A stretch of 42,466 nucleotides of DNA, from contig JAGWGZ010000005.1 of the NCBI GenBank assembly GCA_028867075.1, forward strand, positions 1-42,466, read 5' to 3'. This DNA comes from Nanobdellota archaeon (GTDB taxonomy: Archaea > Nanobdellota > Nanobdellia > Pacearchaeales > GW2011-AR1). A program made the translations under genes and the position numbers. Shown here in pieces: positions 35,636 through 42,466 of the stretch (its first letter is position 1; each line of letters starts with the position of its first letter). The notes under the pieces were generated by a model, which made no database searches, was not told the origin of the DNA, and saw only the letters and a program-made list of their open reading frames with translations.

Positions 35636-38008
35636 ATGATAATTCAAAAAGATTTCACTGGATTAACTAGTTCTGAGGTTGAAGAAAGAACAAAAACTTT
35701 TGGATTAAATCAAATTCCTGAAAAAAAAGCTGGCTTCATAAAGCGCATTGCAAAATGGATTGTCTCACCGATAAGTTTGATGCTTATAGCAGCATCTGTA
35801 CTTTCATTCATAGGGAGAAATACCTTTGATGGATATTTCATAGTATTTCTTTTGTTCCTAAACTTTGGAGTGAGCTTCTGGCAGGAAAACAAAGCAGACA
35901 AGGCAATAGAAAAACTGAAGGAGAAACTGGCCATACAGGTAAAAGTACTGCGGGACGGGCATTGGATTTACCTTGAATCAAAATATCTTGTTCCGGGTGA
36001 TGTTCTTGAGTTGGACATAGGGGATATAGTCCCTGCTGATACAGAGATTATTGACTCAAAGAATCTTGCCGCAAACGAGTCTGTAATCACAGGAGAATCG
36101 CTTCCAAAAGATAAGAAAGATGGGGACAAGCTCTTTTCAGGCTCTTACATCTCCTCAGGGGTATGCAAAGCCAGGGTAACTGCGACTGGAAAGAATACAT
36201 TTTTTGGGAAAACCTTGGTCTCAATAGAGACAAGCAAGAAAAGGAAGAGCATTCTTGAAAGAGACATCCTGAGGATTTCAAAATACCTCTCGGGAATAAG
36301 TATTTCAATCGCGCTTATCCTCACTGCATTTTATCTTATAGGCCACAAACCCCTTAGTGACTTATTGATACTTGACATAAGCCTTATAATCGCGGGAGTC
36401 CCGATAAGCCTTCCGACAGTTATGACACTTATCATAAGCATTGGAGTTCTCGCACTTTCGAAGGAAAATGTGATTGTAAGGCGGCTCTCGAGCCTTGAAG
36501 ATTTCTCAAATGTCAACATGCTGCTCACAGACAAGACCGGAACTCTGACTAAAAACCAGATTAATGTTGAAAAAATAATAACTTACAATGGATTCAAGGA
36601 AAAAGACGCGACAAAATACAGTTATTATGCAATACAAGGAAATGAAAAAAATCCGGTTGATGCTGCAATAATAAGCAATGCGAAGAAAAGCGGGTTTACA
36701 GAAAGGCCAGATTTTGTTGACTTTGTGCCTTTTGATTCATCCAGAAAAAGAAGCACTGCAACCATAAAGGAGAACAATAAAACCGTTACATTATCTATTG
36801 GAGCGCCGCAGGTTATAGAAAAATACTGCTCTTTTGGAAAGGGAGAGAAAAAGAAATTTGAAGAGGACTTCGTAAGTGCCGGTAAAGGGGGGTACCGACC
36901 ACTCGCAATAGGAATTGCACGGGGGAACAAGGAAAAGGGCCTGAAACTTATAGGAATGACTCTGCTTTCAGACACCCCTTATTCTGATATAAAAGATACT
37001 GTCCAGTTCATGAAAGACAATGGTATTGATGTCAAGATGTTAACAGGCGATAATGATGCAATTGCAAAAAGGGTTGCGGGCGACCTTGGATTCACAGGGC
37101 AGATAATAAACAGAAGCCAGCTAAAAGAGAATGACATAAAGAATGTCCCGGGAAACTGGATAAATTCGGTGGCAGGATTTTCAGAAATATATCCTGAGGA
37201 TAAAATGGGGATCGTGCAGCTTGCGCAAAAAGGAAATAATACAGTAGCTGTTACGGGTGATGGGGTCAATGATTTGCCTGCTATACACACTGCTGACGTT
37301 GGAATAGCGGTGAGCAACGGCGTTGATGCGCTGAAAAGCTCTGCGGACATTGTTCTACTAAGTGACGGACTATCTGTGATTAAGACAGCAATCATTGAAG
37401 CCAGGAAAATATTCAGCAGACTTTATACTTATTCAATTTACAGGATTTCGGAAAGTTTCAGGCTAATTTTGTCTATCGGAATTCTTGGGCTCGCATATGG
37501 AATTTATCCTCTTACAGCAATTCAAATCATAATTCTCGCACTTCTTAATGACCTCCCAATCATAACCCTTGCATATGACAGGGTGAAAGCAGTCAATAAA
37601 CCGGCAAGCATTGATGTAAAGAAGAGGTTTATTCTTGCAACATCGTTCGGATTTGTCGGGCTCTTCAATTCAGTGTTATTCTTCTGGCTTGCAAACAATA
37701 TTTTCCATTTGCCGCTCGACATAATACAGACAATGTTTTTCCTCAAACTTACAATAGGCGGCCACATGCTGATCTATGTTGCACACACAAGAGATAGGTG
37801 GTTCAAATTCCTTCCGTCAAAGCAGGTCATAATAGCAACTCTGACGACGCAAGCGGTCGGAACAATATTGGCGGTAACAGGGACATTCATGAACCAGATT
37901 CCTATAACTTATGCCCTGATAATGTGGGGCTGGGCTTTTGTCTGGATGCAAATAACAGATTTGACAAAATTCTTTGTCAGAAAAGAAGAAAGGTTGCTAA
38001 TGGGATAG
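35636..38008 (+). CDS. P-type ATPase, P3A-like (proton pump type)
   Basis: 790 residues. Phosphorylation motif DKTGTLT begins at D299, the actuator motif TGES is at 152-155, and TGDGVNDLPA lies near residue 540. The spacing and the segment GVPISLPTVMTLIISIGVLALSKENVIVRRLSSLEDFSNV before DKTGT match plasma-membrane H+-ATPases (P3A). About ten membrane helices, no long N- or C-terminal regulatory domain. A strong ribosome binding site (GGAGGT) precedes the ATG. The ion is inferred from the family, not shown. Confidence 0.87.
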   Translation: MIIQKDFTGLTSSEVEERTKTFGLNQIPEKKAGFIKRIAKWIVSPISLMLIAASVLSFIGRNTFDGYFIVFLLFLNFGVSFWQENKADKAIEKLKEKLAIQVKVLRDGHWIYLESKYLVPGDVLELDIGDIVPADTEIIDSKNLAANESVITGESLPKDKKDGDKLFSGSYISSGVCKARVTATGKNTFFGKTLVSIETSKKRKSILERDILRISKYLSGISISIALILTAFYLIGHKPLSDLLILDISLIIAGVPISLPTVMTLIISIGVLALSKENVIVRRLSSLEDFSNVNMLLTDKTGTLTKNQINVEKIITYNGFKEKDATKYSYYAIQGNEKNPVDAAIISNAKKSGFTERPDFVDFVPFDSSRKRSTATIKENNKTVTLSIGAPQVIEKYCSFGKGEKKKFEEDFVSAGKGGYRPLAIGIARGNKEKGLKLIGMTLLSDTPYSDIKDTVQFMKDNGIDVKMLTGDNDAIAKRVAGDLGFTGQIINRSQLKENDIKNVPGNWINSVAGFSEIYPEDKMGIVQLAQKGNNTVAVTGDGVNDLPAIHTADVGIAVSNGVDALKSSADIVLLSDGLSVIKTAIIEARKIFSRLYTYSIYRISESFRLILSIGILGLAYGIYPLTAIQIIILALLNDLPIITLAYDRVKAVNKPASIDVKKRFILATSFGFVGLFNSVLFFWLANNIFHLPLDIIQTMFFLKLTIGGHMLIYVAHTRDRWFKFLPSKQVIIATLTTQAVGTILAVTGTFMNQIPITYALIMWGWAFVWMQITDLTKFFVRKEERLLMG

Positions 38009-38038: not shown

Positions 38039-38302
38039 ATGAAAGATAAAATGAGGTTGAACACATTAAAATTCGGAATCAGCGGAGGAATAGTCTGGGC
38101 ATTTGTTGTTCTTGGAGTGTCCATATTTGCAAACAATTTCCCAACCTGGGAAATGTTAATTCATGAATGCTATGGATTTTTGGGATACAATCCGTCAACT
38201 TTCTTGGGGGTTGTTCTTGGAGTGGTTTATGGCTTCATAGACGGCTTTGTGGGTTTCTTCGTCCTTGCGTGGATTTACAATCTTTTGAATAAAAAAGATT
38301 AA
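38039..38302 (+). CDS. Small two-helix membrane protein (holin-like family)
   Basis: 87 residues with hydrophobic segments at about 15-32 (GGIVWAFVVLGVSIFANNF) and 55-80 (FLGVVLGVVYGFIDGFVGFFVLAWIYNLL). The pattern matches small archaeal and bacterial proteins annotated as bacteriophage-holin-like, but there is no phage context and the actual role is unknown. It overlaps the end of the SMC gene on the other strand by four bases. Confidence 0.7.
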   Translation: MKDKMRLNTLKFGISGGIVWAFVVLGVSIFANNFPTWEMLIHECYGFLGYNPSTFLGVVLGVVYGFIDGFVGFFVLAWIYNLLNKKD

Positions 38303-41157
38303 GCCTTCAAGCTTATTACTTTACTGACGCCTTCGTTCATGCTTATTCCGTAAAGGTTGTTCGCATTAAGAATCACTTCATCATTGTGAGTCACTGCGAT
38401 GTACTGGCCTTTTTCCATGTATTTCTTCAAGAGGAGAGCAAGTCGCTCTGAATTCCTCTTGTCAAGAGCGGCATCAATTTCGTCAAGCACATAAAATGGA
38501 TAGGGTTTCAGCTCCTGAATTGCAAAAATCAGGGAAAGAGCAACAAGGGTCTGTTCGCCTCCCGAAAGAGAGGTGACATCAAAATATTTTCCATGCCCTG
38601 TCTTGAGCATGACGTTGACGCCGCCTTCAAACGGCTCTTTTTGGTTTTCCAGCTCAAGAAATACCTGCCCTTTTGAACTGAGTTCAGAAAAGTTGCGTGA
38701 GAATATTTCATTCAGGGCATTGAATGTCTTCATGAGGGTCTTCTTTTTTCGCAAATCAATCTCGCTTATGACCTTTAAGATGCTTTCTTTTTCGCCTTCT
38801 ATCACCTGCATTTTTTCTTTTATGGAATCATACTCTTTTTTCACAGAATCGTAAACCTCAAGGGAGCGGAGATTTACAGAACCGATGTTCAACAGTATCT
38901 CCTGCGTCTTTTCAAGCCTTTCCGCCAGGACTTCTTTGCTTGCCTTTATTTTCTCTATCCCTTCATAATCCTGAAGTTCTATCCTGAAGTTTTCAGCCTC
39001 TGCATTTATTTTCGCATCTTCAATCTTGAGGTTATTTATTTCCTGCTCTATGTTATACAGAACATTCTGGTTCTGCGAAATTGATATCTGGCTGTCGCGG
39101 ACATCTTTCTGTAAGTCGTCACGTTCAGAGATCATCTTCCTGAATTTCTCGCTAAGCTGCTCTTCCTGTTTCTTTTTATCACTCAGAACTTTCTCCTTTT
39201 CAAGAATGTACTCTGTAAACTTTCTTATGTCGCCTTTCATTTCTTCTTCGTCTCCTATGATTTGCCTGAGCGTGGATTTTATCTTTTCAACATCGCGAAT
39301 CCTGAATGAAATCTCAGAGCTCATATCCTCCTCGCTGATCAGAGGTATTTCCTGAATCTTGAGCCTAAGTTCCTCGTATCTCCTCTCAATATCAGACTCC
39401 GACTCAACCTGTTTTTCAAGCACCTCTTTCTTCTTTCCAATTTCATTAATTTCGGTTTTTGCAGAGTCTATTCTTTCCTGCAGAACTTTTATCTGGTTTT
39501 TCTTTTCTTCAATTCCGGTTAAGGTGATTATATCTGATTCTGATTTTGAGATTTCTGAGGATATATTTTCAATTTGCTCCTTAAGAATCTTCTTCTTGTG
39601 GAATATTTCCCCGAGTTCCTCATCAGCCTTTTTTATTTCATTTCCGAGCAAGTTTATTTTCTCAGCTGTCTCACGACTTATGGAATGAACGTGCTCTTCT
39701 GTAATCTTGTTCTTGCAGACCGGACAAATATCCATTTTCGAGATTTTGACAATCAGTGATTTCTGGTTCTCGATTTCGTGCTCATTTGAATATGATATTT
39801 TCTCCAGCTTTATTTCGTCACTTTCAAGCTTTTCAAGCATCTCTCTTTTCTCAACGAGGGAGATTTTCAACGAGCTTAATTTCTGCTTGTCTGAATTCTT
39901 GTCAAACAGATTTTTCGCAATTGTCTTTATCTGCTCTAAAAGAAAAGACGATTCCTGTTCATATCCGCGAAGCATGATCTTTTTGTCTTCAAATCTCTCT
40001 TGCAGGGTCTTCAGTTCTGATTTATTCAGGTAGAATTTCTTTCTCTGGAGTTCAAGCTTCTCAAGCTCGCTGTTTTTCAGCTCCATCTCCTTTCTTTTGA
40101 AAGCTGCTTTCGGGCTTTCTTTTTTCATTTTTTCAATCTCCGACGACAATTCAGAGAGATTCCTGTTCAGGCTTTCTTTCTGCCTTGATATTTCACCCAG
40201 CCGCTTCTGGCTGTTCTCCAGCCTTGCATTTGTTCCTGCCAGATCGGCCCTGAGATTTGTTATCTCCTGGTTGAGCTTTTCCTGTTCCAGTCCAGTGGAA
40301 CTTTGTATTTTTGAGTTTATTGCAGTTATCCTGGACTCCATATCAGAAATTCGGGCCTGGATTTTCATTATTTCTCTTTTCACCTTGTCTTTTTCTTCGC
40401 TTTTTTTGTCAACTCTTTCCTTTAGTTGCTCAACTTCCTTTTCTTTTTTCTGCAAGTCGGAATAAATCATGCCTGCCTTGAATTTTTTTACATCTTCCTG
40501 AAGTTTCTTGAATTTCAAGGCCTGCTGCCTTTCCTTTTCAAGATTATTCATGTAAGCTGTTCTCTCCCGCAGGATTGTGGAGATTTCTTTCAGCTTTTCC
40601 TCTGTCTTCTCAAGTTCCTTGAGTGATTTTTCTTTTCTCACCTCATAAATTGAAATCCCGGCAATCTCTTCAATAATCTTTCTCCTTTCCTCTGTATGCA
40701 TCTTGACGAAATTCTGGATTTCTCCCTGCAGGATTATGTTAAATCCATTGGGGTCAATTCCCGCCTGAGCCAAAAGAGATAAAACATCCTGCCTTGTCTT
40801 TGTCTCGTTGTTTATCCTGTAAATGCTCTGTCCGTTTTTCCTGACAATTCTTTCTATAGCAATTTCATTCCTGTCGATGCTGAATGACTTATCTGAATTA
40901 TCAAATACAATTTCAACTACAGCTTCCCCTGAACCTGAGACAAATTTGTTTCCCTGGAATATAAGATGACTTGATTTCGCAGCCCTCATGGACTTTGAGC
41001 TCAGCCGTCCAAGGACAAAGCATAAAGCATCGGTTATATTGCTTTTTCCCGAGCCATTGGGGCCAAGGACAACATTTATCTGGGGGACAAATGGAATCTC
41101 TGTTTTCTTTGCAAAACTCTTGAACCCTTTCATCACCAGCTTTTTTATATAAGTCAT
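38299..41157 (-). CDS. smc: SMC-family ATPase with Rad50-style zinc hook in place of the hinge
   Basis: 952 residues. The N-terminal head is SMC-like: MTYIKKLVMKGFKSFAKKTEIPF, Walker A GPNGSGKSN (about 34-42), ILQGEIQNFVKMHTEERR (Q-loop side). The C-terminal head has the SMC signature LSGGEQTLVALSLIFA and Walker B FYVLDEIDAALD. Between them lie two coiled coils of about equal length. The middle is not a globular hinge of about 150 residues but a CxxC with the zinc-hook pattern, CPVCKNKITEEHV: C478 and C481 of 952, exactly central. Ordinary SMC is about 1170 residues with a hinge. Two such hooks would join through one zinc ion, as in Rad50. The gene stands alone; no scpA, scpB or mre11 is near. 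Confidence 0.92.
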   Translation of the reverse strand: MTYIKKLVMKGFKSFAKKTEIPFVPQINVVLGPNGSGKSNITDALCFVLGRLSSKSMRAAKSSHLIFQGNKFVSGSGEAVVEIVFDNSDKSFSIDRNEIAIERIVRKNGQSIYRINNETKTRQDVLSLLAQAGIDPNGFNIILQGEIQNFVKMHTEERRKIIEEIAGISIYEVRKEKSLKELEKTEEKLKEISTILRERTAYMNNLEKERQQALKFKKLQEDVKKFKAGMIYSDLQKKEKEVEQLKERVDKKSEEKDKVKREIMKIQARISDMESRITAINSKIQSSTGLEQEKLNQEITNLRADLAGTNARLENSQKRLGEISRQKESLNRNLSELSSEIEKMKKESPKAAFKRKEMELKNSELEKLELQRKKFYLNKSELKTLQERFEDKKIMLRGYEQESSFLLEQIKTIAKNLFDKNSDKQKLSSLKISLVEKREMLEKLESDEIKLEKISYSNEHEIENQKSLIVKISKMDICPVCKNKITEEHVHSISRETAEKINLLGNEIKKADEELGEIFHKKKILKEQIENISSEISKSESDIITLTGIEEKKNQIKVLQERIDSAKTEINEIGKKKEVLEKQVESESDIERRYEELRLKIQEIPLISEEDMSSEISFRIRDVEKIKSTLRQIIGDEEEMKGDIRKFTEYILEKEKVLSDKKKQEEQLSEKFRKMISERDDLQKDVRDSQISISQNQNVLYNIEQEINNLKIEDAKINAEAENFRIELQDYEGIEKIKASKEVLAERLEKTQEILLNIGSVNLRSLEVYDSVKKEYDSIKEKMQVIEGEKESILKVISEIDLRKKKTLMKTFNALNEIFSRNFSELSSKGQVFLELENQKEPFEGGVNVMLKTGHGKYFDVTSLSGGEQTLVALSLIFAIQELKPYPFYVLDEIDAALDKRNSERLALLLKKYMEKGQYIAVTHNDEVILNANNLYGISMNEGVSKVISLKA

Positions 41158-41866: not shown

Positions 41867-42466
41867 TCAGAATTCATCCAGCTTTTTCTGGCTGGCTTTT
41901 GCGAGGGCAATCCTCCACGTTTCCCAAGTCTTTCTAAAAATCCCTTCATTGCCGTATTTTTCCAGGTTCTCTTCAATGAACTTTATCGTGATTGGATCAT
42001 GGCAGTAACCAGAACCTATTTTCCCGTATTTTTCATTCAGCAGGGCCATTTCCTTGTCTCTGACACGCTTCGCAAGAATTGATGCTGCGGATGTTGCAAT
42101 GTGGTTCTCATCAGCCTTGTGCTCGCAGATTAGGATTATGTTTGACCTGTTTTCTATTTTTGAAAGCACGATTTCCCGCCAGGTGTCTGTTTTTGGATTA
42201 GGACAGTCTATTATGACCGTTATTTCACTAAAACCTTTATTGATTTTATTTATTATCTCTGCTGCTGCAATTGCTTCAAGCTCGTTGAGTTTTATCCCTT
42301 TTATGTTCTTGTCTTCAATTTCCAGAGGCGGAATAATTGTTATTTCAAAAGTCTCTGCAAGGGCTTTTATTTCATCCTCAAGTTCCTCGCGCTTTTGCTT
42401 CGTGAGCCTTTTTGAATCTTTTACCCCGAGTTTCTTCAGCTTTTTTTCAAATTTCTCATCTATCAG
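41867..42466 (-). CDS. rnhB: Ribonuclease HII, N-terminus cut by the window edge
   Basis: Removes RNA from RNA-DNA hybrids. The frame is open to the last base, giving 199 residues without the N-terminus; the GTG at 42169 is an internal codon, not the start. Visible blocks: KDSKRLTKQKREEL near the window edge, where DSKxL is typical; NELEAIAAAEIINKI; IIDCPNPKTD with the catalytic aspartate; and ADENHIATSAASILAKRVRD with the last acidic residue. The GIDEAGRG motif must lie just outside the window. C-terminal GSGYCHDP and WRIALAK are normal for archaeal enzymes. Confidence 0.92.
   Translation of the reverse strand: MIDEKFEKKLKKLGVKDSKRLTKQKREELEDEIKALAETFEITIIPPLEIEDKNIKGIKLNELEAIAAAEIINKINKGFSEITVIIDCPNPKTDTWREIVLSKIENRSNIILICEHKADENHIATSAASILAKRVRDKEMALLNEKYGKIGSGYCHDPITIKFIEENLEKYGNEGIFRKTWETWRIALAKASQKKLDEF

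Follow-up and report, generated by a model that had tools for sequence, protein, structure and literature searches.

An archaeal SMC protein whose hinge is replaced by a Rad50-type zinc hook

The window analysed here is a stretch of 42,466 nucleotides from a Nanobdellota archaeon (assembly GCA_028867075.1, contig JAGWGZ010000005.1), whose draft genome of 575 kb in 26 contigs is 88.7% complete. Towards the end of the window lies an smc gene (38299..41157, minus strand, as are all features below unless stated otherwise), which starts with ATG, encodes 952 amino acids and was assigned from its open reading frame together with profile and PDB matches. Both halves of the ATPase head are intact: the N-terminal half (residues ~1-165, 40663..41157), delimited by matches to the archaeal SMC heads 5xei and 4i99 and by an AlphaFold2 model, contains the Walker A motif GPNGSGKS (residues 32-39, 41041-41064), and the C-terminal half (residues ~801-952, 38302..38757) contains the signature SLSGGEQ (38551-38571; LSGGEQ being residues 864-869) and the Walker B motif PFYVLDEID (38473-38499; FYVLDEID being residues 888-895). 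Between them run an N-terminal coiled-coil arm (residues ~166-474, 39736..40662) and a C-terminal arm (residues ~490-800, 38758..39690), both defined by AlphaFold2 helices and by alignment with the corresponding arms of hinge-type SMCs. The centre of the chain is MDICPVCKNKITEEHV, and the apex reads CPVCKNKITEEH, carrying C478 (39724-39726) and C481 (39715-39717), two of the three cysteines found in the whole protein (46, 478 and 481). The predicted zinc-hook core, MDICPVCKNKITEEH, spans residues 475-489 (39691..39735) and is recognised by Pfam model PF04423, by profile matches to Rad50 hooks including 1L8D and by an invariant CPxC. The upstream syntenic neighbour is rnhB (RNase HII, 41867..42466, PF01351), which runs off the window; downstream, on the opposite strand, lies a gene for a P-type cation ATPase of 790 amino acids (35636-38008). 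Close relatives of the SMC come from assemblies labelled Pacearchaeota, Nanoarchaeota or plain archaeon.

The head and arms are those of an SMC protein. The window SMC scores 516 bits with TIGR02169 and 508 bits with TIGR02168, as against 105 bits with the best Rad50 model and 99 bits with the model for the archaeal SMC-related proteins known as ASRPs, and it matches Pfam SMC_N with E = 3e-50. It falls short of the NCBIfam equivalog cut-offs (729 for TIGR02169 and 567 for TIGR02168), which is a formal failure, albeit one expected when the hinge is absent; hinge-type relatives reach 836-849 and 649-650, respectively. Its top PDB matches are SMC heads, and the AlphaFold2 fold matches the SMC heads 5xei from Pyrococcus yayanosii and 4i99 from Pyrococcus furiosus, the latter a head with the C-domain of ScpA (TM 0.89 by target). 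In a head tree including seven Rad50 proteins of the same order, Rad50 is separated at 100/100. Rooting with Rad50 is misleading owing to very long branches, and hinge-type SMCs were used instead in a second tree; here, the whole order forms a single clade, sister to the hinge-type SMCs of the same class (100/100). The gene also shares its position with undisputed smc genes: rnhB is close to smc in the majority of hook-type loci and in five of the eight hinge-type loci examined. Because this linkage is found in both kinds of locus, we regard the window gene, on sequence grounds, as the orthologue of hinge-type smc with its apex exchanged, and not as an added paralogue.

The hinge is missing from the protein and from its wider lineage. 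PF06470, the hinge model, finds no match in the window SMC or anywhere in the source genome (it was detected in 10 of 14 control genomes), and none in the 40 orthologues scanned, with all eight hinge-type controls positive. Across the sampled genomes of the phylum a hinge is present in 228 of 279, but is absent from all 33 of the window's family and from the five others of its order. The remaining 13 hinge-less genomes belong to the same class but lie outside the order, and comprise four with contig-broken SMC fragments, three with weak matches and six with no match. Three genomes of family f55 (G099, G126 and G257, two of them single contigs) yielded neither an SMC-profile match nor a hinge and possibly represent a lineage without SMC. 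The boundaries of the exchange can be drawn from six genomes in which both aligned pieces reach the apex: the alignment of hinge-type SMCs of the same class with the hook-SMC model runs to about positions 452-474 and resumes at about 494-501, and between these boundaries the hinge-type SMCs have 153-217 residues, compared with 21-41 in the window's hook family. The AlphaFold2 model (mean pLDDT 80) contains no globular hinge; an N-arm of helices 169-210, 220-344, 354-414 and 424-474 leads into a turn at 475-486 holding the CxxC, from which the C-arm side returns as helices 487-586, 590-602, 610-729, 741-758 and 765-826.

What occupies the apex instead is strongly conserved. All 40 aligned orthologues, which share 39-62% identity with the window SMC, retain C478, P479 and C481, and CPxC is present in all 45 distinct hook-form sequences, which rules out a chance CxxC; elsewhere in the arms there are only 16 cysteines per 18,851 residues. 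Conservation over residues 474-489 averages 3.27 bits, as opposed to 2.36 for the arms. Rad50_zn_hook (PF04423) matches the window SMC at residues 477-507 with E = 0.0012, at 19.0 bits and hence under the cut-off of 24.3, so the assignment depends on the profile of the family; the same model matches 20 of 40 family members, the best at 7e-7. A model built from the SMC hooks recovers 27 of the 32 Rad50 proteins of the order (best E 1.1e-14) and matches no hinge-type or hook-less SMC, and hhalign pairs the SMC hook with Rad50 hooks at 98.6% and E 9e-16. Searched against the PDB, the 16-row hook profile ranks the archaeal Rad50 hook 1L8D first (E 1.6e-4), with BRCA1 RING fingers close behind (E 8e-4), and phmmer with the 61-residue hook alone retrieves only RING fingers and similar structures at E near 1. 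Because the RING fingers trail so closely, the homology of the SMC hook to Rad50 hooks, which these profile comparisons indicate, rests mainly on the direct comparison with Rad50. An earlier note on this DNA had described an SMC with a zinc hook and no hinge, and had called this a hybrid architecture. Both descriptions hold, given the Pfam matches, the AlphaFold2 model, the conserved CPxC and the lack of PF06470, with a Rad50-type hook seated on SMC head and arms. The two observations that it had named as speaking against its reading, namely a hinge match at residues 440-540 and a head grouping inside Rad50, were not made.

The partners expected of an archaeal condensin are also encoded. ScpA, the kleisin, occurs in 51 of 56 genomes of the family (E 1.8e-12 in the source genome) and ScpB in 52 of 55 from the order (E 4.5e-39 in the source genome). 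In addition, the source genome contains a separate Rad50 of 682 amino acids, which carries a CPTC hook of its own and directly adjoins Mre11 on another contig (C20:5301-8613 of genome G000, L025). Rad50 proteins of ~680-700 amino acids are usual in the order. The proposal of the earlier note that the protein may replace both SMC and Rad50 thus fails; across the order, 54 of 55 genomes encode Rad50. Its picture of a complex joined head-to-head through zinc is likewise an unlikely geometry, the hook lying at the apex, distant from the heads, where it would join arms as a hinge does. Because ScpA and ScpB are encoded as well, the protein would simply be the SMC of an SMC-ScpAB complex.

These data bear directly on several other explanations. 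The zinc hook and the 105 bits obtained with the Rad50 model could be accounted for if the protein were an orthologue of Rad50, or a Rad50/SMC fusion performing both jobs together with Mre11, but this is hardly credible given that the head falls with SMC by models, PDB matches and tree, that mre11 adjoins a true rad50 elsewhere in the same genome, with Rad50 near-universal in the order, and that kleisin and ScpB are conserved. Membership in the ASRP family (coalescin ClsN and Sph), whose members combine zinc hooks with SMC-like heads (PMC9389158), is very improbable: the 99 bits scored with the ASRP model NF045487 fall well short of the 300 that this model requires and are no more than what Rad50 (99) and hinge-type SMCs (112 and 110) obtain, the TIGR02169 score is five times higher, the arms are full-length and the synteny is that of hinge-type smc. 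One might suspect that the hinge was lost through misassembly of a chimera or through an error of reading frame, as the source genome is a draft and its named relatives are metagenome assemblies, yet the same architecture occurs in full-length frames of 45 distinct orthologues from several families and independent projects, and a hinge is found in 0 of 38 sampled genomes of the order, so that the probability of an artefact is negligible.

Very probably, this protein is the SMC of an archaeal SMC-ScpAB condensin whose hinge was exchanged in situ for a short zinc hook of the Rad50 type. In the model suggested by homology, two SMC chains would be joined at their arm tips, where one Zn2+ would be held by C478 and C481 from both chains, four cysteines in all, and the heads at the other end would be bridged by ScpA with ScpB, closing the kleisin ring; the complex would then organise or extrude chromosomal DNA in the usual ATP-driven manner, but without hinge-type DNA contacts. 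Zinc binding, dimerization, binding to ScpA and function of the hook-SMC are all predictions from sequence. Two published experiments make zinc-joined arm tips plausible: Bacillus subtilis grows normally on rich medium when its Smc is furnished with the Rad50 hook of P. furiosus, and the chimeric Smc(Zh) shows normal arm association (PMC5344682), while Rad50 carrying the MukB hinge is functional in fission yeast (PMC6969161). It could be argued that the hook is real but serves mainly to pair SMC with Rad50 through mixed hooks, or with other SMC dimers, instead of closing a homodimer. SMC and Rad50 of one cell have homologous hooks, and the sequence of a hook is not known by itself to dictate partner choice; we nevertheless consider such a role improbable, as SMC needs an apex dimer for which the hook is the sole candidate, and the Smc(Zh) chimera associates and supports growth normally (PMC5344682).

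Within the window's own phylum, which the survey for hooked SMCs covered, the trait spans one Pacearchaeota-like order, some members of which have neither hinge nor hook. Families f4 and f91 and part of f3 have an SMC of only ~780-810 amino acids that lacks both the hinge and a CxxC; the hook-less mini SMCs are L067-L074 (genomes G273, G330, G327, G332, G326, G329, G322 and G324). AlphaFold2 models their tip, from eight sequences and with moderate confidence, as two antiparallel helices (360-404 and 408-444), i.e. a predicted helical hairpin. As these close relatives do without it, the hook is not indispensable in the order. A further candidate for a hook-less SMC, from Aenigmatarchaeota (L012:6626-8995, 790 amino acids with very short arms), was dropped, because the middle of this short-armed SMC looks like a hinge on visual inspection. 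In the head tree, family f91 branches first and the f3 mini SMCs fall inside the hook-bearing sequences; a single clade of hook SMCs is rejected (p-AU 0.008), and the apex has therefore changed at least twice within the order. The SMC hooks of families f3 and f88 have their highest-scoring counterparts among the Rad50 hooks of their own order (up to 117 BLOSUM62 units over 48 columns), which hints at the Rad50 of the same lineage as donor of the hook, although 48 columns are too few for proof, and the tree built from the 48-residue hooks cannot identify the donor for the same reason. A broader scenario, in which the apex of SMC acts as a module that is exchanged freely, its hook derived from Rad50, perhaps, given the scores of the f3 and f88 hooks, acquired or converted repeatedly, and absent from three sub-lineages with a helical-hairpin tip, and in which mixed SMC-Rad50 dimers might form, is speculative and on balance unlikely. 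As a separate feature of smc genes, an intein of ~530 amino acids in the Walker A motif (GPNGSGK/C...HN/S) splits the ATPase P-loop in L083, L081 and L082 (genomes G261, G323 and G241); the same intein is probably also present in G213 and G298, and the sister-class genomes G044 and G057 have a matching gap near residue 40 of SMC.

With canonical SMC of the SMC-ScpAB complex (TIGR02169/TIGR02168; e.g. in P. furiosus and P. yayanosii), the window SMC shares the head, the arms, the encoded ScpA and ScpB and the rnhB-linked locus known from the same class, but it has a zinc hook instead of the PF06470 hinge and is ~210 amino acids shorter (952 versus ~1165). With Rad50 of the Mre11-Rad50 complex (hook 1L8D), it shares the CPxC apex hook and the same flanking pattern, and differs in its SMC head, in its encoded kleisin and ScpB and in the presence of a separate Rad50-Mre11 pair in the genome. 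The ASRPs (coalescin/ClsN and Sph; PMC9389158) are likewise archaeal members of the SMC superfamily with a zinc hook; the window protein is set apart from them by model score, and is the canonical SMC itself, encoded by genomes that have retained ScpA and ScpB. The closest parallel is Smc(Zh) of B. subtilis (PMC5344682), the same domain swap onto SMC arms, which is a laboratory construct, whereas the window SMC is natural, fixed in its lineage and long diverged. Hinge-less SMC variants from the ocean, apparently actinobacterial (PMC12153180), also combine an SMC head with a coiled coil, but unlike the window SMC they lack a CXXC; the short hook-less SMCs of the order resemble them. The papers searched, an incomplete set without bioRxiv preprints, contain no description of a natural SMC that combines a zinc hook with kleisin partners.

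In one order of tiny archaea, evolution has arrived at the same domain exchange that had been engineered in a bacterium in the laboratory. A review separates SMC, with hinge and kleisin, from Rad50, with zinc hook, Mre11 and no kleisin (PMC10586767); a kleisin-encoding lineage with a Rad50 apex, and related families with neither apex, cross this divide. They also serve as a warning that annotation of SMC and Rad50 by a single domain misleads. The short SMCs of the order are suited to structural work, and the lineage as a whole offers a natural test of whether the work of a condensin needs the hinge fold and its DNA contacts, a question so far probed by engineered chimeras.
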